From IMG/VR virus record IMGVR_UViG_3300017917_004490, positions 1-37,542 of that record: a stretch of DNA of 37,542 nt; one strand, written 5' to 3'. The notes beneath the pieces are model-generated. The model did not search any database. It had not been told where the DNA came from and saw nothing but the letters and a program-made list of their open reading frames with translations. The translations under genes and the position numbers were made by a program. The DNA is from a virus. Below are positions 824 through 32,777 of this stretch, piece after piece. Each line of letters starts with the position of its first letter. Within the stretch, counting starts at the first letter, position 1.

Positions 824-2464
824 TCACAGGCCCGGCCCCTGCCCCAGCCACGGGTCGTCCAGATCGTCGAACGGCGCCGGTGGCGGGATGAAGCCGCCCA
901 CTTCCGACGCCGCGCCCGGGCGGCTCTTCAGGCGTATGCCGACGCGCTCCTTCTTGCCGGTCTTGTGGTTGGCCACGGCATAGACCTGGGCGTTGTTCAG
1001 CTCCTTGCCGAAGGTGGTCTGGCTGATGATCCGGTCTTCCTTGTCCCCGCGATCCAGGCAGAACTGGCGGAACGCCTGGTACAGCGGCGTCGCCTCTTCC
1101 CGCGCCTCGGGGTCGCTCAGGTCGCAACAGGTCTCTATGAACTCGCCCAGCGCGCTCGTCACCTGCCAGAAGCTGGCACTGGCCCGCTGCGCCAGCTCCG
1201 GCTCCGGCACGGTGCCCTCGTTCAGCCAGGCGATGCAGCCCTCGATCATCCAGTTCAGGATGCCCGGCCCCTCGTCCAGCAGGCGCTGCTTCACCAGGTG
1301 CACCGGCTCGTCCGCCACCCCCGGCGTAATGCCGAACTGCACCACCCACGGATACAGCTTGAATCGGCGGCGAAAGCCCCGGTCGTCGCTGGGCGGCTTG
1401 GGCAGCCCGTTGCACTCGAAGATCAGCTGCCAGTGCGGGGTAAAGGAAAGTTCGGTCGTGGCATGGGCCCCGCGCGCAATCATCTCGCTGCCCGTCGCCT
1501 GCTTGATCCGCTGCCCGTCCCACGTCGCGCCCTTCTTGGGCTCGTCGCACACCACCAGGCGGACGTCGCCGGCCAGGCGCACGATATCGCTCTGGTGGGC
1601 AGCACTGGCCTGCGCCGGGCCTTCCAGGAAGGTCTTGGGGTCGGCCTTGCGGGCATAGGCGCCATGCAGCTGGCAGATCACGTCATTGGTCGCGCTCTTG
1701 CCGTCCTGCCCCTTGCCCTGGAAGATATAGAACGCCTGATCGGAAATCAGCTGGGTCAGGCCCATGCCGTATATCCGCCTGATCGCCTCGCGCTGCACCG
1801 GGTCATGGTGCATGGTCTCCATGCGCGCGATCCATTCCCGCGCCACCGCTCCGGCATGATAGGCCACATTGGCCACCTGCATGAAGCGGTCCGCCGCCCG
1901 GTGGCCGGGCGTGAAGGTATGGGTCCAGCCATCCGGCCCCCGCACCATGCGGATCACGCCGTTGGCGGCATGATAGGCGTGCACTTCCGTATCGAAATCG
2001 CGGATCCATGCCTGCGTCACGAAGGGCGCGTCCAGATCGTCGCCGGCCTCCATGTCGCGCAGGCCCTTGTACTGGTTCAGGCCGGCGGTGCACTTGGCAT
2101 GGTCGCCGCACTTGATGCCGTAACCGAACAGCTGGCCCACGCGCTCGTCGGCCATCTCGCGGGTATATTTCGGGCCGAACACGGCGGCCAGGTCCTCAGG
2201 CTCCGCATCGCGCAGCGCGGCCGATTCCTCGCTGATCGCCATGGCCGCCTTCTGGGCATAGGCCAGCGCCCGCATCGGCCCCTGGTCGGTTGACCAGCGG
2301 ATTCCGTCAAAGGCCACCCAGCACCCCTTGCCGCCGGCCCCGTCGGCCAGCCACAGCAGCTGCGCGGCCCCGGCGGCATCGCGCGCCGCCTCATAGACCC
2401 GCCGGGCAAAGCCCAGGTCGTTCATCGGCAGGCGCGCCCGCTCCAGGGCGGAAAGGCGCTTCAT
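824..2464 (-). CDS. Phage/plasmid primase-type SF3 helicase (D5/P4 family)
   Basis: A 546-residue protein of the D5-like/P4-type superfamily 3 helicases, which unwind DNA at phage and plasmid origins. The Walker A motif is QGKGQDGKS (residues 249-257) and the Walker B is LVVCDE (303-308). Motif C/sensor 1 follows as FECNGLP with the key Asn at 352, then an Arg-rich finger region (DRGFRRRF). The N-terminal 230 residues match the D5_N-like region rather than a primase domain; priming is supplied by the adjacent DnaG gene. The start overlaps the dnaG stop by 4 bases (ATGA), so the two are probably translationally coupled. It lies immediately upstream of the ACTGTC repeat array, which fits loading at a nearby origin. 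Confidence 0.9.
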   Translation of the reverse strand: MKRLSALERARLPMNDLGFARRVYEAARDAAGAAQLLWLADGAGGKGCWVAFDGIRWSTDQGPMRALAYAQKAAMAISEESAALRDAEPEDLAAVFGPKYTREMADERVGQLFGYGIKCGDHAKCTAGLNQYKGLRDMEAGDDLDAPFVTQAWIRDFDTEVHAYHAANGVIRMVRGPDGWTHTFTPGHRAADRFMQVANVAYHAGAVAREWIARMETMHHDPVQREAIRRIYGMGLTQLISDQAFYIFQGKGQDGKSATNDVICQLHGAYARKADPKTFLEGPAQASAAHQSDIVRLAGDVRLVVCDEPKKGATWDGQRIKQATGSEMIARGAHATTELSFTPHWQLIFECNGLPKPPSDDRGFRRRFKLYPWVVQFGITPGVADEPVHLVKQRLLDEGPGILNWMIEGCIAWLNEGTVPEPELAQRASASFWQVTSALGEFIETCCDLSDPEAREEATPLYQAFRQFCLDRGDKEDRIISQTTFGKELNNAQVYAVANHKTGKKERVGIRLKSRPGAASEVGGFIPPPAPFDDLDDPWLGQGPGL

Positions 2465-4224
2465 ACGTCCAGCCCCCGGGCATCGATCAGGGCATGGGTC
2501 GCGGCGCGGCGGCGCAGCTGGGCGCTGGGCGCGCGCGCCCGGCCTTCCACCACCTGCGGCAGCATGGCCTCGGTCATCGGCCCCCGGATGCCCAGGGTGC
2601 GCCGATACAGCACGCGGGCCATCTCGGCCTCCTCGCGCACGGCAGGCCCGTGGGCCAGGTCGCTTTCAATGTCGCGCACCACGGCGCTGATTTCCTTCTT
2701 CACAAATCCCAGGGCCTCGGCCATTTTCATCACGTCGGCGATTTCCTCGGTAATGGCCTTGCGCTCGGCCCGTTTCTTCACCACGGCCCGCACGATGGCG
2801 ATCAGCCGGGCGGCACTGTCGCTCTCGCTTTCGGGAAAGGCATATTCGCCTTCCTCGGCCTGGCGCACGGCGTGCAGGGCATGGTCCCCGGCCACGGCCG
2901 GCACGGCGGAAACCTCGCGGTCAAACCGCGCCCGCCACGCCGCCAGCACCTGCACCCGCGTCTCGTCATGGCCAATCTGCGCCACCAGTCCAGACAGTTC
3001 GTCCCAGATCCCGGCCACCCTCTCAGGCGCGCGCGCGGCGGCGTGCTGCGCCTCATCCCCCAGAACCCCGGCCACCACCGCGTCAAACAGCACGTCATGA
3101 CCGCCGCGTGCCTCGCAGACCATGGCATCGATCGCGCGCGCCGCCGCATCCGGACCCAGCGCGCGCACCAGGTCGTCCGGGTCCTGCCCGGCGGGCAGAA
3201 AGGCCACCCCCAGGCCATGCCCCGGCCCCAGCATCGGCAGGGCCGTGGTAACCGCGCGCACCGCGGCCCGCCGCCCGGCCTCGTCGCCATCGAACAACAG
3301 CACGGGCCGGTGATGCACCCGCCAGCAACGTTCCAGCTGGTGGGCCGTCATGGCCGTGCCCATCGGCGCCACCACGGCCCCCACGCCCGCCCCGGCCAGG
3401 GCAATGACGTCAAAGTACCCTTCCACCACCAGCAGGCGGCCCTCGGCCTGCGGCCGGGCCAGCGGTGCGGCGCGGTGCAGGTTGAACAGCAGCCGCCCCT
3501 TGTCGAACAGCGGCCCGTCCGGTGAATTGACGAACTTGGGCTGCTGGTTGCGCCGCTGCGGCCACACCCGCGCGCCAAAGCCCGCCAACCGCCCCCGGCT
3601 GTCATGGATCGGAACGGTGATCCGGTCCCAGAACAGTTCCTTTACGCCCATGGGCTCACCCGGCCCGGCGCCAATGTCCTGCCGGTCGACCAGCAGGCCC
3701 GCCTGCCGCCCCAGCCCCTCGCTGATCCCCTGCCCCTTCAGGCTGCCGGCCATGCCGCGGGCATAGCCCAGGCCAAAGGCGCGCACCGCATCCGGCCCGA
3801 TGCCGCGCCCGGCCAGATATTCCATCACCGCGCCGGCCTGTTCCAGCTGCCCGGCATAGATCGCCTGGGCCCGGTCCAGCACGTCGCGCACCGTCGCCGC
3901 CGCCTTCGCCGCCTCGGCCGCACGCGGCGAAGGGGCCGGCATCTCGATCCCCGCCGCCTCGGCCAGCTGCCGCACGGCTTCGATGAATGTCAGCCCGTCA
4001 TGCTGCATCAGCCAGCGGAACGCGTCCCCGTGCCAGCCACAGCCAAAGCAATGGGCGAACTGCTTGTCATCATTGATGGTAAAGCTGGGCGTCTTCTCGC
4101 CATGGAACGGGCAGCACGCCTTGAACTCGCGCCCCGCTTTCGTCACCTTCACCGTCCGCCCGATCAGGCTGGACAGCACCGTCGCATCCCGCACCCGGTC
4201 CAGAAACCCCGCGTCCAGCGCCAC
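2461..4224 (-). CDS. dnaG: DNA primase, DnaG type
   Basis: A 587-residue DnaG-like primase that makes RNA primers for phage replication. The CHC2 zinc-binding domain is complete: Cys38-x2-His41 in CCPFHGEKTPSF, then Cys59-x2-Cys62. The catalytic TOPRIM domain shows VVEGYFD (acidic Glu268) and LLFDGDEAG (Asp312-Asp314). The C-terminal third is Ala-rich and has no clear DnaB-binding match, which suits a partner SF3 helicase. The start is GTG at 4224; the Shine-Dalgarno GGGGAGG is at 4233-4239, inside a palindromic repeat element. It overlaps the downstream helicase gene by 4 bases. Family call is very secure. Confidence 0.95.
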   Translation of the reverse strand: MALDAGFLDRVRDATVLSSLIGRTVKVTKAGREFKACCPFHGEKTPSFTINDDKQFAHCFGCGWHGDAFRWLMQHDGLTFIEAVRQLAEAAGIEMPAPSPRAAEAAKAAATVRDVLDRAQAIYAGQLEQAGAVMEYLAGRGIGPDAVRAFGLGYARGMAGSLKGQGISEGLGRQAGLLVDRQDIGAGPGEPMGVKELFWDRITVPIHDSRGRLAGFGARVWPQRRNQQPKFVNSPDGPLFDKGRLLFNLHRAAPLARPQAEGRLLVVEGYFDVIALAGAGVGAVVAPMGTAMTAHQLERCWRVHHRPVLLFDGDEAGRRAAVRAVTTALPMLGPGHGLGVAFLPAGQDPDDLVRALGPDAAARAIDAMVCEARGGHDVLFDAVVAGVLGDEAQHAAARAPERVAGIWDELSGLVAQIGHDETRVQVLAAWRARFDREVSAVPAVAGDHALHAVRQAEEGEYAFPESESDSAARLIAIVRAVVKKRAERKAITEEIADVMKMAEALGFVKKEISAVVRDIESDLAHGPAVREEAEMARVLYRRTLGIRGPMTEAMLPQVVEGRARAPSAQLRRRAATHALIDARGLDV

Positions 4225-4488: not shown

Positions 4489-4763
4489 CACTGCAGGCCC
4501 CCGGTAAGGCCCGCTGCCGCCACCCCCCGCCGATGCGCAGTTTCCACTGCACCGGGCAGCCGTTGGCAGAACATGCCGACCAGCGCGCCACGCAATGCGG
4601 CGTCATCGATGGCACCGAAACCGCATGACAGGACCTCACCCAGAACAGCTGTCACATCGACGGCGAACTGCGCATAGGGCTGTCCCTGGCGCTCGCGCTC
4701 AACGCCCCAGGCGTCGACAATCTGCAGAATGGCCAGCATGGCCTCTTTGGCATCCTCAGGCAT
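4488..4763 (-). CDS. Hypothetical protein in replication operon
   Basis: A 91-residue, mostly helical protein (PEDAKEAMLAILQIVDAW..., then a second helical region with two Cys residues). I do not recognise the family. Stop/start overlaps of the TGATG form on both sides tie it to the clamp gene upstream and the small gene downstream. A GTG one codon earlier (4766) is an alternative start. Coding is supported by tight packing in the operon and by the lack of any better frame on either strand. Confidence 0.6.
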   Translation of the reverse strand: MPEDAKEAMLAILQIVDAWGVERERQGQPYAQFAVDVTAVLGEVLSCGFGAIDDAALRGALVGMFCQRLPGAVETAHRRGVAAAGLTGGLQ

Positions 4764-5989
4764 CACGCCACCCGCATCGGCATCAGCACCTGCAACAGGC
4801 CGCCTTCGCCGTCCGCGCTGCTCAGCAAGGCCGGGTCGCCGGCCGTCCGCATCGCCATTGTCACGCTCTCGCTCGCCAGGGCGGCCAGGGCCTCGCGCCA
4901 GTAATTGCCGTTAAAGCCGATGGTCACCGGCTCCCCGGTCAGGCTACAAGGCACGTCTTCGCTGGCCGTGCCGTTATCGGCGCTGGTCACCGTCAGCGTC
5001 GCCAGCCCGTCGGCAAAGGCGCACTTGACGCACCGGGTCTTGTCGCTGGCCATCACCGTCACGCGCCCGATCGCCTCGGCCATGGCCTCGCGGTCAAAGG
5101 TCGCCACGTTCGGGCACTGGGCCGGGATCACGCGGGTATAGTCGGGAAAGGTCCCGTCAATCAGCTTGCCCAGCAGCTTCACGTCGCCATCGCCAATGGT
5201 CCAGCGCACCGCCGCCGGGCCATCCATGGCCACGGTCACCACCGGCGGCGCGGCATCGGCCTTGTCCGCCGCCTTCACCGCATGGGCCAGCAGGGGACGC
5301 AACAGGTCCACCGTGCGCCGGGCAACAATCCCCGCCGGCCAGCTCGCCCCGCCCTCGGGCAGATCGATGCACAGCACGGCCAGCCGGTGACCATCCGTCG
5401 CCGCCGCCTTCAGGTCCATGCCATCGGCGTGCAGGTAAACCCCGTTCAGGTAATACCGCGTCTCTTCGGTCGAAACGGCATGACGCACGGCATTCAGCAT
5501 GTCGTCCAGGCGGGTGGCCGGGATCTCCATCGATGCCGGGCAATCGCGCACCGGCGGCAGCGGGAAATCGGTAACCGGCAGGGTCGGCAGGCGGAACCTG
5601 GTGCGCCCCGCCTTCACGTTCAGCACAGCGCCGTCCACTTCCAGCACCGCCATGGCATCGCCATCGAACCGCGCCACGGCAGCCGCCAGCAGCTTGGCCG
5701 GCACCGTCACACCAAACGGCGCGGTGCCTGCCTGCCACTCCCGGCTGTCCGGCTGGCCGGAATCGTCGCTGGCCAGGCGGCGCACGGCCCAATGGTCCAG
5801 GTCGCAGGTAGTCAGCACGATCTGGCCATCCGCCGCTTCCAGAAAAACGTTGGCCAGCACCGGAATGGTGTTGCTGGCCTGCACCACCCCGGCCACGTCC
5901 TTCATCGCGGCGGCCAGGCGCCCGGCCCGCACGCGGGTGCGCATCGCGCGCGGATCGGCCGATGTCTCAGTCTTCTTTGCCACGGTCAT
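4763..5989 (-). CDS. dnaN: DNA polymerase III beta subunit (sliding clamp) homologue
   Basis: A 408-residue protein with the three-domain DnaN architecture: an N-terminal domain with VFLEAADGQIVLTTCDLDHW, a FRLPTLPVTDFPLPP segment typical of the first inter-domain region, and LNGVYLHADGMDLKAAATDGHRLA, the classic domain 2 signature. The C-terminal part has a LTVTSADNGTASEDVP stretch and ends in a MPMRVA-like tail, as in bacterial clamps (usually about 370 residues). It should form a ring that tethers DNA polymerase. The ATG at 5989 has a Shine-Dalgarno GGAGA directly against it, so the GTG at 5983 is a possible better start. A clamp encoded by a 37-kb phage without its own polymerase is uncommon. 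Confidence 0.9.
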   Translation of the reverse strand: MTVAKKTETSADPRAMRTRVRAGRLAAAMKDVAGVVQASNTIPVLANVFLEAADGQIVLTTCDLDHWAVRRLASDDSGQPDSREWQAGTAPFGVTVPAKLLAAAVARFDGDAMAVLEVDGAVLNVKAGRTRFRLPTLPVTDFPLPPVRDCPASMEIPATRLDDMLNAVRHAVSTEETRYYLNGVYLHADGMDLKAAATDGHRLAVLCIDLPEGGASWPAGIVARRTVDLLRPLLAHAVKAADKADAAPPVVTVAMDGPAAVRWTIGDGDVKLLGKLIDGTFPDYTRVIPAQCPNVATFDREAMAEAIGRVTVMASDKTRCVKCAFADGLATLTVTSADNGTASEDVPCSLTGEPVTIGFNGNYWREALAALASESVTMAMRTAGDPALLSSADGEGGLLQVLMPMRVA

Positions 5990-26178: not shown

Positions 26179-26487
26179 TCAGATGCCGCCGCCGTTAATC
26201 CCGCCCGATGCCCAAGACAGTCCCTTGTCCACCGTGCAGAACGCGCCATTCCGGATGGGCGCGCCCATGGCATTCTCGGCATCGAACTCGATGTCGACGG
26301 AATAGCGGTCATCCAGCTTGGTCACTTCACTCGAAACGCGCCGGTAGGTCGCGGGTGCGACCAGGTCGTCCATGATCAACTGCTCGCACAACCGCGTCGC
26401 CCGGGTCGACGGCATCACCTGGTAGATGCCGATCGCCGCGACGGCGGCCAGAATCACCAACCCGGCCACTTTCACAATTCTGTTCAT
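26179..26487 (-). CDS. Small membrane-anchored protein, candidate moron
   Basis: A 102-residue protein (two residues longer if the GTG at 26493 is used). It has an N-terminal signal-anchor or signal peptide (KVAGLVILAAVAAIGIYQVM) and a soluble periplasmic part with two Cys (Cys in RLCEQLI and in GAFCTVDK), ending in a Gly-rich tail. It interrupts the usual order (DUF6441-like gene then tape measure) and is followed by a strong hairpin. Exported or membrane proteins in such places often are morons, for example superinfection exclusion factors. That function is inference. Confidence 0.65.
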   Translation of the reverse strand: MNRIVKVAGLVILAAVAAIGIYQVMPSTRATRLCEQLIMDDLVAPATYRRVSSEVTKLDDRYSVDIEFDAENAMGAPIRNGAFCTVDKGLSWASGGINGGGI

Positions 26488-26489
26488 GC

Positions 26490-27152
26490 TCACACCTGTC
26501 CCCGAATCCGCGTCACCTCGCGGCCAATGCCACGGGCGATGTAGTCATGCGCACGGCGCACCGGCGCGTCCAGCGATATGCGGTTGGCATGGCGCTGCTG
26601 CGGGATCAGCAGGAATATGGGAACCGTCTCTTCATCTCGCCCTTGGGCGGCGCGGCGCGCCGTAAGCTTGCGCACGCCCCGGCCGTTCTTGGCGGCTGTC
26701 GAAACGGCCACCAGCATGGCAAATCGCCGCCCCGTATAGACGAACTGCAAGCGCATGCCGTTGCGTCTTTCCCACTCGCCCGGGGTCAGCTCGCGCCCGC
26801 GCGTGTTCGGCCCGGCAGCAGGCAGCGGGATGGCCAGCCACTGCCCACCTTCCGGCCGGTTGACGCCCGGCTGCGTCCAGTAGGACACCATCCCCTTCGA
26901 CCGGCGATTGCCGTTGGCGAAGACCTCGCCGGCCGGGGTGTAGCTGGGTTGCCCGGCGCGGGGATAGACCGCGCTTTTCCACACGCGCCAGGCGTTGCCC
27001 TTGATGGTGGCCTTGAACAGGGCTTCCAGTTCCCGCTCCAGCACCTTTGTCGCCACATGAACCGTATCGGTCGCCCCGCGCAGAATGTCGGACACGATCT
27101 GCTCTGACACGCCCCGCAGCTGCGCCGTTTCAACTTCAAGCTTCAGGCTCAC
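26490..27152 (-). CDS. DUF6441-like tail assembly protein
   Basis: A 220-residue protein that carries the DUF6441 signature: WLAIPLPAAGPNTRGRELTPGEWERR, then LQFVYTGRRFAMLVAV, TVPIFLLIPQ and a final RISLDAPVRRAHDYI. Members lie between tail tube and tape measure genes and are thought to act in tail completion or assembly; no activity is known. I chose the GTG at 27152 (VSLKLEVETAQLRGV) with GGAG 8 bases upstream over the ATG at 27194. It overlaps the end of the frameshift extension gene. Confidence 0.75.
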   Translation of the reverse strand: MSLKLEVETAQLRGVSEQIVSDILRGATDTVHVATKVLERELEALFKATIKGNAWRVWKSAVYPRAGQPSYTPAGEVFANGNRRSKGMVSYWTQPGVNRPEGGQWLAIPLPAAGPNTRGRELTPGEWERRNGMRLQFVYTGRRFAMLVAVSTAAKNGRGVRKLTARRAAQGRDEETVPIFLLIPQQRHANRISLDAPVRRAHDYIARGIGREVTRIRGQV

Positions 27153-27444
27153 CGGGCTTTCTCCGTTTTTCCATCCAGCCATCCAGCAAGGCAAAGGCCT
27201 CGATGACGAAGACCGGCTGCTCGAAGTAACCGCCGCTTACCGGCATCAGCGGAGCCTGCCCCATCGATCCAGAGGCAAGGCTCCGCATTTCAGCCCAGCG
27301 TTGCACCAGGCGGGTGGCCCAGCCCGGCGTCGTGAAGCGGGGGTTTTCGGCATATTCATGGCCGCCGAAGGCCCAGCCACCTTTGACCTTCCGGGGGAAC
27401 TGGAAGCCCTCCGGCGCGGCAAACAGCTCAAAGGCGGCTCTCAG
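27136..27444 (-). CDS. Frameshift extension of tail chaperone (no start codon of its own)
   Basis: A 102-codon open frame (LRAAFELFAAPEGF..., HEYAENPRFTTPGWATRLVQRWAEM, ...FEQPVFVIEAFALLDGWM) in the -1 frame relative to the 27441-27995 gene. It has no early ATG, GTG or TTG but joins the preceding gene exactly at an A-AAA-AAC heptamer (27444-27450). It continues to a TGA at 27136, overlapping the GTG of the next gene. This matches lambda G-T, in which a minority of ribosomes slip to make a longer chaperone. A stop codon follows the slip site at once in frame 0. Confidence 0.75.
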   Translation of the reverse strand: MRAAFELFAAPEGFQFPRKVKGGWAFGGHEYAENPRFTTPGWATRLVQRWAEMRSLASGSMGQAPLMPVSGGYFEQPVFVIEAFALLDGWMEKRRKPGEPEA

Positions 27445-27995
27445 TTTTTTCGCTGGGTCCCGGCATATTGCCGCGCATAGGCCTCCAGGCCCGCCGCGCG
27501 GATCTGGGTGAAGGGGATGCGCCGCAGGATCTCCTCCGGAATCTTGCCCAGGGGGTTGCGCTCGTAAGGCACAACCTCGCCGCTTTCATCCTTCACGTTC
27601 TCCCAGCCATCGCACCACTGCACAAAGGCCAGTGTCGGCAAAAGCCTGTTGCGCCGCGCCTCCTGCTCGACCAGCAGGCGATAGTCCGGCCAGTGCTCCT
27701 CCAGCACCGCAATGGCCCGCCGGAACTTCACCTGGTCGGCGACGGACAGCTTCTCGCCGCCCGCCTCAGCCCGCACCAGTTCGATCAGGGCTTGCCCCTC
27801 GTCGCCGGGCAGCAAGGCCTCGATCCCGGCGACCGCCGCTTCCTCGATCATGAACTGGAGGACGACACCCGCCCTCCAGCGCCCGTCAAGCTCGCCCTCG
27901 AAGCCGTCGCGCTCCAGCACGGTGCCGCAGCGCAGGTGAAACACAGGCTTGTCATCCTCGGCGTCAAGCCAGGTCGGCGTGAATGGTCCCATCAT
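27441..27995 (-). CDS. Tail assembly chaperone, gpG-like (upstream frame)
   Basis: A 184-residue protein after the tail tube gene, the place of lambda G. It is rich in acidic residues and helical (VLQFMIEEAAVAGIEALLPGDEGQALIELVRAEAGG, KFRRAIAVLEEHWPDYRLLVEQEARR). It ends Arg-Lys-Asn-stop on CGA AAA AAC TGA, so the last codons form a programmed -1 slip site. Like gpG it probably holds the tape measure and tail tube subunits during assembly. I start at the ATG at 27995; the longer frame to 28034 overlaps the tail tube gene. Confidence 0.8.
   Translation of the reverse strand: MMGPFTPTWLDAEDDKPVFHLRCGTVLERDGFEGELDGRWRAGVVLQFMIEEAAVAGIEALLPGDEGQALIELVRAEAGGEKLSVADQVKFRRAIAVLEEHWPDYRLLVEQEARRNRLLPTLAFVQWCDGWENVKDESGEVVPYERNPLGKIPEEILRRIPFTQIRAAGLEAYARQYAGTQRKN
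27444..27450 (-). promoter_or_regulatory. -1 programmed frameshift heptamer A-AAA-AAC
   Basis: On the minus strand the zero-frame codons CGA AAA AAC TGA contain the canonical X-XXY-YYZ heptamer AAAAAAC. Slipping back one base reads AAA, then CTG AGA..., entering the open 102-codon frame. The stop codon directly after the slip site would help the pause. Confidence 0.75.
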
Positions 27996-28005
27996 TGCCC
28001 CGCCC

Positions 28006-29244
28006 TCAGTAGAAGCACAGGATGGTTTCAGCATCCCGGCTGCCGGCGTCGACGCCGGGGTTCAGCACGGCAAGCGAAAGCTGCTCCGTGCGGTAGATGC
28101 CGCGCTGCCCCACCTGCGGATCGGCCGGCGCCACCAGCGGATTGACGATCGACCAGCGGTTGCCCGCCACCCCGCCAAAACGCAGCACAGACGGGTACTG
28201 CGTGCCCGCCTCGATCTCGGCAATTGTGTCGCGCGTCGCTTTCAGGGTCACAGTCGGATCGATCGCCAAGGTCGGCGCGCGGCCCGCCAGTTCCGGGCTG
28301 GAAAAGCCGAAAGGCGTGTTCGGGTCGTCGACAACTTCCTTCACCTGTCCATCGTTCAGAGACCACTGGCTGATAGCCAGCTCGCGCCGGTTGATGACAA
28401 AGGCCGGATCGATGCCCGCAGCGCCCTGGGCCAGCACTGGCGCGGCCTGCTGCGGCACGGTGATCGCGGGCATGGTCGCATCGCTCTTCCCGGCATAGAT
28501 GCCCATCAGGTTGAAGGTGCAGAAGCCGGGCCGGGCGGACTGGCCCGAAAGGTCGGAAATCGAGCCACGGCAACCGACGAACTTGTGCAGCGTGCCATCC
28601 TCGTAGAGGTAGAGCGTCCCTGCCGGGTGGTCAGTGGCGCGCGCCACCGCATCTTTCGGGCTGGTCCCGGCATAGGTCCAGTTGGCCGGCACGGCAGCCG
28701 TGACAGACGTGTTCAGCGCCGCGCCGAAGATGTCGGTCAGGGTCGCGACCTTGGCCGCCGTGTAGTCCGAAACATGCACCAGGCGGCCACCGCTGTTACC
28801 GGCGGCAAGCTGCAGCGGCATGCCGCGATAGGCCTGTGCCGTGGCGGCAAAGCTGGCACCCAGCGTCGCCGAAGTGGTCGTACCCGCGACGATGGCCTGG
28901 GCGGCAACTGCTGCGGTGAACAGACCCCGCTTGCCGCAGGCGGAAAGCAAAGCGTGGTGCGGCGGGCGGATCAGGGATGTATAGGTCGTCCCGGCACCGG
29001 CGCCCTTCAGCCGCACGCGGATGGAAACTTCCGCCGGCTGCCCCACAATCAGCGGCGCGGATGCCACCAGCGAACCATTCGCTTCGTTGCTGCCTTCGCT
29101 GCGATAGGGCGCGTTGTAGCTCCAGCCATCCGCTTCGAACGGGAAGGCATCGGCCGCCGTCGGCGCGGCATCGGTGCCCACCGTCGTTTCCAGCTTGAAC
29201 AGCATGGCCACGTTGCGGGGGCGAATTTTGGTGGAAGTGTCCAC
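28006..29244 (-). CDS. Major tail (tube) protein
   Basis: A 412-residue protein, larger than lambda V (246). The N-terminus starts KIRPRNVAMLFKLETTVGTDAAPTAADAF, typical of tail tube proteins that build the hexameric tube. Long beta-rich stretches with GQPAEVSIRVRLKGAG and a domain of Ala/Thr/Gly (AAVPANWTYAGTSP..., LYLYEDGTLHKFVGCRGSISDLSG) follow. The extra C-terminal domain could be surface-exposed. GTG start with AAAGGAGA upstream. Position between tail terminator and chaperone genes supports the call. Confidence 0.82.
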   Translation of the reverse strand: MDTSTKIRPRNVAMLFKLETTVGTDAAPTAADAFPFEADGWSYNAPYRSEGSNEANGSLVASAPLIVGQPAEVSIRVRLKGAGAGTTYTSLIRPPHHALLSACGKRGLFTAAVAAQAIVAGTTTSATLGASFAATAQAYRGMPLQLAAGNSGGRLVHVSDYTAAKVATLTDIFGAALNTSVTAAVPANWTYAGTSPKDAVARATDHPAGTLYLYEDGTLHKFVGCRGSISDLSGQSARPGFCTFNLMGIYAGKSDATMPAITVPQQAAPVLAQGAAGIDPAFVINRRELAISQWSLNDGQVKEVVDDPNTPFGFSSPELAGRAPTLAIDPTVTLKATRDTIAEIEAGTQYPSVLRFGGVAGNRWSIVNPLVAPADPQVGQRGIYRTEQLSLAVLNPGVDAGSRDAETILCFY

Positions 29245-30752: not shown

Positions 30753-32777
30753 TCAGCCCGCCGGGGTCAGCGCATCGAGCATGGCGGCAAAGCTGGCCGG
30801 CTGGCGGCAAGCGAAGTCGACATCCTGCAGCGCAACCACGCGGACCGTGCCGCTGGTCGAACCGGTGAACGGGTCGACCACCAGATCGAGGCCGCCCCAC
30901 ATGCCCATCAGCAGGTCGGACCAGTTGCCGTAGATGATCGCGGAGCAGATGCCCGAAGCAGTGCCCTTGGTCAGGTTCGAGGGCACCTGGTTCGAGGCGA
31001 TCGCGCGATAGCCGTTGACCGTGTTGTCGCGGTCCCACACGCGCATGCCCGAGCCGGAGAACTCCTCGGTCTTCTTCAGGCGGCCACGCACGGCGGCATT
31101 GGTCAGGTAACCCAGGTTGCCGATGGCGGCGTTCGCCACGGCAACCGCGGTTTCCAGGTCCACCATATGGGCATAGGTCGGCGCGGCGCCATTGGTGCCG
31201 CCGGCAACCGAACCGATACCCGAAGTGTTCAGGATGCCTCGGGGCTGGTTGGAAGAACCCGAACCGTTGATGCCGGCCTGGTCGATCATCAGGCCCAGCA
31301 CCATGGCCAGATCCTGGCGGACCAGGCCTTCCACGTCGATCGAGCTCTGCAGCAGCAGGCGGCGGCTGATATCGGTGAAGGCGCCGGCCGTCTTCGGCGT
31401 CAGCGTCACCTGGTCGAAGGCCTGCTGGCTTTCGGTCGGCGAACCCGATTCCGCCAGCCAGTAACCGGTGGCGCCGCCGGTCTGGCGCGGAATGGCGATA
31501 TTGCCATTCAGCTCCCCCAGCGTGCGGATACCCATCTGCTGCAGCGCCATGGAATTGCGCAGCATGTCGATAAAGCTGCCCGCCAGCAGGTCCGTGGCCA
31601 CCGTGTGGCCGCCGGCAGTTGCCGTGCCGACCGTCAGGTCGCGCTGGCCACCGCCCGCCGCCAGTGCCGACCGCAGGACATCGACAGGCACGGTCTCGCC
31701 GCGCTGTTCCGTCTTGTGGGTGCGCCGACGCGCTTCGGCCGAACATTCGAATTCAAAGGCGGCAGCTTCCTGCGCGCCGCGATCGTTCGGGTTGGCCAGG
31801 GCGTTGAGCAAGCGAACGAAGCTGTAGCGCTGCTGATCGCGGTTGCTCATGCCGATTTCGGGGGTTTCCGCCGTGCGGATCGCCGTCGCGGGGCCGGCAG
31901 CGCGCTGATAATCGGCGATGAAGGCTTCCAGGCTGCGGCCATCAGCCACGGCCGCGTCAGCCAGCTCGCCGCAGTTCAGACGCATGCCCATCGCGCGGAT
32001 GTTGGCAATGCGGTCGCGTTCGGCGGCGCGCACGGCCTCGGCATCCAGCGCCGGCGCAGCCGGAGCAGCAGCCACCGGCGCGGCGGCGCGGGCTTCGAAG
32101 GTAGGCTGGACCGGCGCGACGGGCGCGGCGGCAACAGGCGCGGCGGACTGGCCGCCGTCGTTACGGGCAAAGTTCATCTCGTCTTCCTCTTCGTTGTGGC
32201 AAAGCAGCGTGCGGGGATCGAAGCCTTCCGGCTTGCCGTCCCGGCCAACACCAACGGTGGTATCGGCGGGCACCGCGACGATGCTGATTTCGTAGGGTTC
32301 CCAGTCGGTTGCACGATAGGTCGCTTCCCCGTCACTCTCCTTTTCGAGAATGATTTCGTGGATGCGATAGCCAACGCTCACCAGCTTTCGGATGCCGTCC
32401 TGGACATCCTGCCAGATCTCCTCCGCGCGCGCCGATTTGCCGAACCGGACGATTGCGAAGCCCTTGCGGCCCTTGATCCAGGCCTTTTCCACAACGCCCA
32501 CCTGGTCGCGGGTGTTGTGGTCCATCAGCAGGGCGGCGGCGCCGTTCAGGCGGCCAAGCCGGACAGCGCTTGCCCTGTGATCCAGTATCTCGGTGCCCCA
32601 CCAGCGCTGGTAAGGCTCTTCCGAGGAAAAGCTCAGCTCGACAGTGCGGGCCTGGGCGTTGACCGAGTCTGCCCGCACCTCGAACACCATGTCGCGGGTC
32701 ATCCGGTCGCCCGGAGCCTCGCCGTCGCGCACAAGCGCCTTCGCCCCCGCCAGCGCGGGGTCGTTGATATGCGTCAT
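30753..32777 (-). CDS. Prohead protease-major capsid protein fusion (HK97 type)
   Basis: A 674-residue single frame. Residues 1-190 are an HK97-type prohead protease: VFEVRADSVNAQARTVELSFSSEEPYQRWWGTEILDH, catalytic His87 (LMDHN) and Ser134 (LVSVGY), then TDWEPYEISIVAVPAD. Residues 200-300 are an Ala/Pro-rich linker and helical delta-type scaffold (DAEAVRAAERDRIANIRAMGM). The rest is an HK97-fold major capsid protein (ETVPVDVL, TVATDLLAGSFIDMLRN, AESGSPTESQQAFDQVTLTPKTAGAFTDISRRLL, ending FACRQPASFAAMLDAL). An internal Met201 at 32177 has AGAGGAAG upstream and could start a separate 474-residue capsid protein. The start has AAGGAG. Confidence 0.92.
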   Translation of the reverse strand: MTHINDPALAGAKALVRDGEAPGDRMTRDMVFEVRADSVNAQARTVELSFSSEEPYQRWWGTEILDHRASAVRLGRLNGAAALLMDHNTRDQVGVVEKAWIKGRKGFAIVRFGKSARAEEIWQDVQDGIRKLVSVGYRIHEIILEKESDGEATYRATDWEPYEISIVAVPADTTVGVGRDGKPEGFDPRTLLCHNEEEDEMNFARNDGGQSAAPVAAAPVAPVQPTFEARAAAPVAAAPAAPALDAEAVRAAERDRIANIRAMGMRLNCGELADAAVADGRSLEAFIADYQRAAGPATAIRTAETPEIGMSNRDQQRYSFVRLLNALANPNDRGAQEAAAFEFECSAEARRRTHKTEQRGETVPVDVLRSALAAGGGQRDLTVGTATAGGHTVATDLLAGSFIDMLRNSMALQQMGIRTLGELNGNIAIPRQTGGATGYWLAESGSPTESQQAFDQVTLTPKTAGAFTDISRRLLLQSSIDVEGLVRQDLAMVLGLMIDQAGINGSGSSNQPRGILNTSGIGSVAGGTNGAAPTYAHMVDLETAVAVANAAIGNLGYLTNAAVRGRLKKTEEFSGSGMRVWDRDNTVNGYRAIASNQVPSNLTKGTASGICSAIIYGNWSDLLMGMWGGLDLVVDPFTGSTSGTVRVVALQDVDFACRQPASFAAMLDALTPAG

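Follow-up and report, generated by a model that had tools for sequence, protein, structure and literature searches.

A putative tail assembly chaperone gene with a probable programmed -1 frameshift and a predicted downstream RNA stem in a virus genome

The window analysed here is the whole 37,542-nucleotide stretch of IMG/VR virus record IMGVR_UViG_3300017917_004490. Its genes follow the order terminase, head-tail joining, portal, capsid, head-tail attachment, tail terminator, tube-like, chaperone, DUF6441, small gene and tape measure. The putative chaperone gene sits between the tube-like and tape-measure genes, both of which were assigned from weak profile matches; the coordinates of all features are collected in Table 1. 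Rfam and tRNA scans of the window gave no matches. Elsewhere in the window, a prohead protease and a major capsid domain share the ORF at 30753-32777 (minus strand), with matches to Peptidase_S78 (just above cut-off) and Phage_capsid (E 4e-44), respectively; the annotation of Rhodobacter phages, for example RcKemmy, likewise lists a 'major capsid and protease fusion'. Moreover, a full three-domain DNA polymerase III beta clamp (DnaN-like) is encoded at 4763-5989 (minus strand), with a DnaG-type primase nearby at 2461-4224.

Table 1. Position, strand and supporting evidence of the features at the chaperone locus and of its neighbours.
Feature	Coordinates	Strand	Evidence or remark
Tail-tube-like protein, 412 aa, directly upstream of the chaperone gene	28006..29244	-	weak Phage_tube_2 and phrog_290 matches
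gpG-like putative tail assembly chaperone, 0-frame product, 184 aa	27444..27995	-	ATG 27995; stop TGA 27443-27441; homologues, AF2 model
Slippery heptamer A_AAA_AAC, 0-frame context CGA AAA AAC TGA	27444..27450	-	same in all relatives
0-frame stop TGA immediately 3' of the heptamer	27441..27443	-	not present in L139-L141
-1 frame extension (putative T-like domain), KKLRAAF...EPEA, 104 codons plus stop TGA 27138-27136	27136..27450	-	coding-type substitution pattern
5' arm of predicted 3' stimulatory stem, AGCCGCCUUUGA, 4 nt after the heptamer	27428..27439	-	folding, shuffles
3' arm of predicted stimulatory stem, UCAAAGGUGGCU	27375..27386	-	folding, shuffles
DUF6441 (PF20039) protein, next gene, GTG start	26490..27152	-	profile match
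Small ORF, 104 aa, between the DUF6441 and tape-measure genes	26179..26493	-	
Tape-measure protein, 1035 aa	22980..26087	-	weak matches: TMP_2 below Pfam cut-off, phrog_7025

The gpG-like gene ends in ...ACC CAG CGA AAA AAC TGA, with the heptamer at its last two codons; the X_XXY_YYZ site that the original prediction had placed in the correct frame at this gene end is thus present and in phase. A -1 slip at this site would carry translation from ATG 27995 to TGA 27138-27136 and yield a fusion of 286 aa, close to the roughly 287 residues first proposed. The extension had been described as having no start codon of its own. This holds for its first 48 codons, there being no ATG, GTG or TTG in the -1 frame between the slip site and GTG 27306, 48 codons in; later candidate starts do exist (27306, 27288 and 27264), each of which would remove the conserved first half. 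The extension had also been thought to end exactly at the next gene; instead, its end overlaps the DUF6441 gene (GTG 27152) by 17 nt, and the same 17-nt overlap is found in most relatives.

The window contains a single copy of the extended motif AAAAAACTGA, against 0.02 expected from shuffles. The bare heptamer AAAAAAC occurs twice, with 1.27 expected, and is therefore unconvincing when taken alone. Similarly, 249 ORFs of at least 60 aa were called mechanically in this GC-rich window, and an open frame of about 100 codons is thus weak evidence; it is conservation that carries the case. Long open frames being common in the window, and a bare heptamer being expected about once in it, both features would also suit a chance open frame, or a sequencing error, in a GC-rich genome.

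Relatives were not found by single-sequence scans, neither with the fusion protein in viral and genome contigs nor with the extension or the DUF6441 protein in viral contigs, and a plasmid search returned weak matches in malate synthase only. After the use of an exact DNA pattern over the slip site, a three-row alignment query built from protein seeds recovered 13 relatives (L130-L142), i.e. 12 IMG/VR loci and one Croceicoccus MAG contig, some of which are near-duplicates. In 13/13, the heptamer is in phase, and the upstream protein as well as the -1 frame is present in related form. Identity to the window is 35-57% for the downstream frame in the 13 relatives and 37-52% for the upstream G-like protein in L131-L142. 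The proposed comparison with related phages thus came out in favour of the extension: heptamer and downstream frame are kept in every relative and, in addition, in the more distant MinM1, L035 and L116, while the search for a refuting case among the relatives gave no broken frame and no extension that begins with a start codon served by a ribosome-binding site. Of the 13 relatives, 0 have a usable start before the slip site. In most relatives in which the contig reaches that far, a gene of the size of the DUF6441 gene overlaps the end of the extension.

The substitution pattern points in the same direction. The codon that holds the first A of the heptamer is GAA in 12, GCA in 5 and CGA in 1 of the family sequences, i.e. 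the residue varies between Glu, Ala and Arg while the A is constant. Outside the slip site, the G gene of the window contains AAG five times and AAA not once; at the slip site, it contains AAA. In the extension, changes at the first, second and third codon positions number 13, 11 and 37 in the close pair L132/L133 and 4, 5 and 22 in the close pair L139/L140, and close pairs have a third-position excess of changes in both the 0 and the -1 frame. Because changes cluster at third positions, the -1 frame evolves like a translated frame. With the frame, the heptamer and the protein sequence all kept in about a dozen separate contigs, together with a coding substitution pattern, the comparative data have already refuted a chance frame or sequencing error, to which we assign next to no probability.

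A tblastn search with the fusion against 50,697 phage records gave a single match, which lies in Synechococcus phage MinM1 (ON981384) and covers the -1 part alone. This record ends and begins inside the chaperone gene (L003 4355-4609; L009 2-577), and it was read across its ends, the linear record being treated as circularly permuted. Read in this way, MinM1 resembles the window in having the heptamer followed by TGA (GCA AAA AAC TGA), a homologous -1 frame (KKLIAALHLSRAPKAFGF...) that is 38% identical to the window extension, and a DUF6441 gene directly after it. By contrast, its upstream protein is barely alignable and not recognisably homologous to that of the window, and the GenBank annotation has the extension as a separate 84-aa hypothetical protein starting within it. 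Because the record was opened inside the chaperone gene, the G-like part is annotated as a misc_feature only and the extension as a truncated CDS.

In the window, CTG is the first -1 codon after the slip and overlaps the TGA, an arrangement that would also allow stop-start coupling, in which ribosomes that have terminated at TGA would begin anew on the CTG of CTGA and produce the T-like protein as a separate chain. However, three relatives (L139-L141) keep the heptamer and the extension but lack the TGA after the heptamer; their 0 frame runs 36 codons further and CTC replaces CTG, and thus neither reinitiation at the TGA nor a CTG start is applicable there. Moreover, the window has no clear Shine-Dalgarno sequence at the right distance, and coupling would leave the invariant AAAAAA unexplained. 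Altogether, we consider stop-start coupling highly unlikely.

The original prediction did not include an RNA structure, and the present analysis adds a predicted stem that begins 4-6 nt after the heptamer; in the window, it comprises 12 bp. In comparison with protein- and codon-preserving shuffles, z is -2.05 for the 66-nt segment at +10 in the window, 23/1000 shuffles being as stable; the same segment in the relatives has z values of -1.4 to -3.6, and the family mean is -2.4. In a scan of ten family members, which are related to each other, the mean z was -2.50 at +10, as against -0.94 to +0.38 for the 17 other positions; in the window alone, another segment, at +160, reaches -2.58. With the codons of the 5' arm locked, the mean z was -1.58 in the family of related sequences and -1.55 in a wider census of loci (see below), which had been chosen for GCCGCC, i.e. 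for the 5' arm. The z value for the window stem with dinucleotide shuffles is -0.83. The window's own stem is only moderately more stable than shuffles.

Counting of named pairs showed 84.7% of cells to be paired versus 27-51% in slid versions, and compensatory changes are present in 4/11 stem pairs. RNAalifold gives a covariation term near zero, the pairing in L139/L140 is another one, and the two outer stem pairs are often broken. From the folding data, the downstream stem is probably a frameshift stimulator. A Shine-Dalgarno-like stimulator was also considered: GGAGAGG or GGCGAGG lies directly 5' of the heptamer in many relatives (L130-L138). It is not claimed here because the motif is not present in the window and a Shine-Dalgarno-like 4-mer lies within 16 nt in only 54/106 census loci.

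The stem also bears on transcriptional slippage, in which RNA polymerase would stutter on the A6-A7 run and a fraction of the mRNA, longer or shorter by one base, would join the two frames. At the slip site, six A (seven in L130-L138) precede a C, and the product would be nearly the same as that of ribosomal slipping. However, the A run is short, and the conserved stem is found on the 3' side of the site, at a spacing of the frameshift type, whereas the stem proposed for transcriptional slippage would be formed by nascent RNA upstream of the site (PMC5009743). Moreover, the junction region of the annotated frameshift chaperones of Rhodobacter phages (e.g. RcKemmy) has GGGAAAC and no long run. 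We therefore regard transcriptional slippage as improbable. In total, the comparative evidence argues that the locus very probably encodes a tail assembly chaperone pair of the lambda G/GT kind made by programmed -1 ribosomal frameshifting. Counting against the frameshift reading, A_AAA_AAC is less slippery than A_AAA_AAG in E. coli (PMC5009743).

Neither the G-like nor the T-like half of the window protein matched a family in Pfam or PHROG, and among the halves of the relatives no chaperone family (Phage_tail_T, DUF1799, Phage_TAC_*) was found above the curated cut-off. A Pfam match to VMAP-M0 in 6/12 relatives (best E 5e-5) was disregarded as probably without meaning in a phage tail protein. 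By hhalign, links from the extension to other extension families are partial and weak. The AF2 model of the G-like protein is helical (pLDDT 90), and its best VIA match is YqbN (3klu; Z 5.3, rmsd 4.1, 86 aligned), which is the sole match with Z of at least 5 among the matches listed. YqbN and HK97 gp13 are counted among the structures of tail assembly chaperones in PMC9603447, where YqbN also matched another chaperone-like protein at a similar Z of 4.4. The match of the modelled structure is no more than suggestive of the helical chaperone fold of HK97 gp13, YqbN and Rbstp2171, as a Z of 5.3 may be attained by a common helical arrangement. A Foldseek search with the G-like model gave no significant match in PDB or BFVD, and HK97 gp13 (2OB9) was not among the matches listed for this model, which excludes nothing. 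The T-like model has a pLDDT of 74 and only a match of Z 2.2, to a ribosomal protein.

The wider census comprises IMG/VR contigs that match the DNA pattern AAAAAACTGANNGCCGCC (at least 120 contigs, 116 of them scorable). Among the matches listed, 106 of the 116 scorable loci have an upstream frame and a -1 frame of at least 60 residues each, and cluster representatives passed the cut-off for DUF1799 (PF08809) and Phage_tail_T (PF06223) and narrowly missed it for Phage_TAC_18 (PF23812). Judged from these two-frame loci and family matches, the exact signal AAAAAACTGANNGCCGCC is mostly a tail-chaperone signal. The KKLxAA motif in the census is not an independent finding because the search pattern itself fixes KKLxAA. 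On balance, we favour the interpretation that the locus represents an undescribed family of frameshifted tail assembly chaperones, neither half of which is in Pfam or PHROG, and that a single compact signal recurs in this family and in several chaperone families that are otherwise unrelated (DUF1799, Phage_tail_T and others), i.e. A_AAA_AAC, TGA and, 4-6 nt later, a stem with a 5' arm encoding the KKLxAA start of the extension.

The production of two chaperone lengths from one gene by a -1 slip is well known in tailed phages. What the locus adds to this mechanism is the undescribed protein family and, probably, the stimulatory stem. The heptamer, its phase, the conservation of the frame, the synteny and a downstream stem that exceeds chance expectation are shown by the analysis. 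In the scheme that we infer for the slipping event, its frequency, the role of the stem and the chaperone function, translation would mostly terminate at the TGA that follows A_AAA_AAC, giving the 184-aa G-like protein. In a minority of ribosomes, tRNA-Lys and tRNA-Asn would shift by -1 on the heptamer, aided by the mRNA stem 4-6 nt downstream, and the product would be the 286-aa fusion with the T-like domain at its end. If lambda serves as a guide, the G part would coat the tape-measure protein and the T part would recruit tail-tube subunits, both leaving before the tail is completed. In lambda (PMC5009743), G binds the tape measure, T recruits the tube protein and their ratio matters. For another chaperone cluster, a frameshift efficiency of 6-7% was measured (PMC3711429).

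The lambda G/GT arrangement invoked in the original prediction applies to mechanism and position, but sequence homology to gpG or gpT is not detectable and two other genes lie between this gene and the tape-measure gene. In common with lambda gpG/gpGT (Levin 1993; Xu 2004, via PMC5009743), the window has the gene between the tail-tube and tape-measure genes and a -1 slip near the end of the first frame, with an extension of about 100 residues lacking its own start. The window differs in its heptamer, A_AAA_AAC, in the predicted 3' stem and in the DUF6441 and small genes that precede the tape-measure gene; no sequence match was found between the window and gpT (Phage_tail_T) or any listed chaperone family. 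The same heptamer, gene kind and slip direction occur in Caulobacter phage phiCbK gp93/gp94 (PMC3556154) and in the archaeal virus HCTV-2 (PMC5009743), a likeness at the level of the signal. By gene order, the window resembles Burkholderia phage KL1 gp18/gp19, HK97 and SPP1, in which an intervening gene precedes the tape-measure gene; KL1 also has a stop codon right after the heptamer and a predicted downstream stem-loop, but its heptamer is GGGAAAC (PMC3483164).

The results leave the understanding of tail assembly unchanged. They correct the annotation of phages in which the second chaperone product is missed or truncated, as in MinM1, assign a likely role to two new protein families and provide a testable case for the idea that a conserved 3' stem accompanies A_AAA_AAC sites in GC-rich phages. 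Finally, in Sc-Yong805-1 and Nostoc phage Nsp-JY21 (L005 and L006, 5829-6526), a DUF6441-like protein is encoded upstream of the presumed tail tube gene. Here, two CDS in the chaperone position are annotated as separate overlapping genes, the first of which contains the A-rich run GACGAAAAAAAAGG, and these may also be a frameshift pair.
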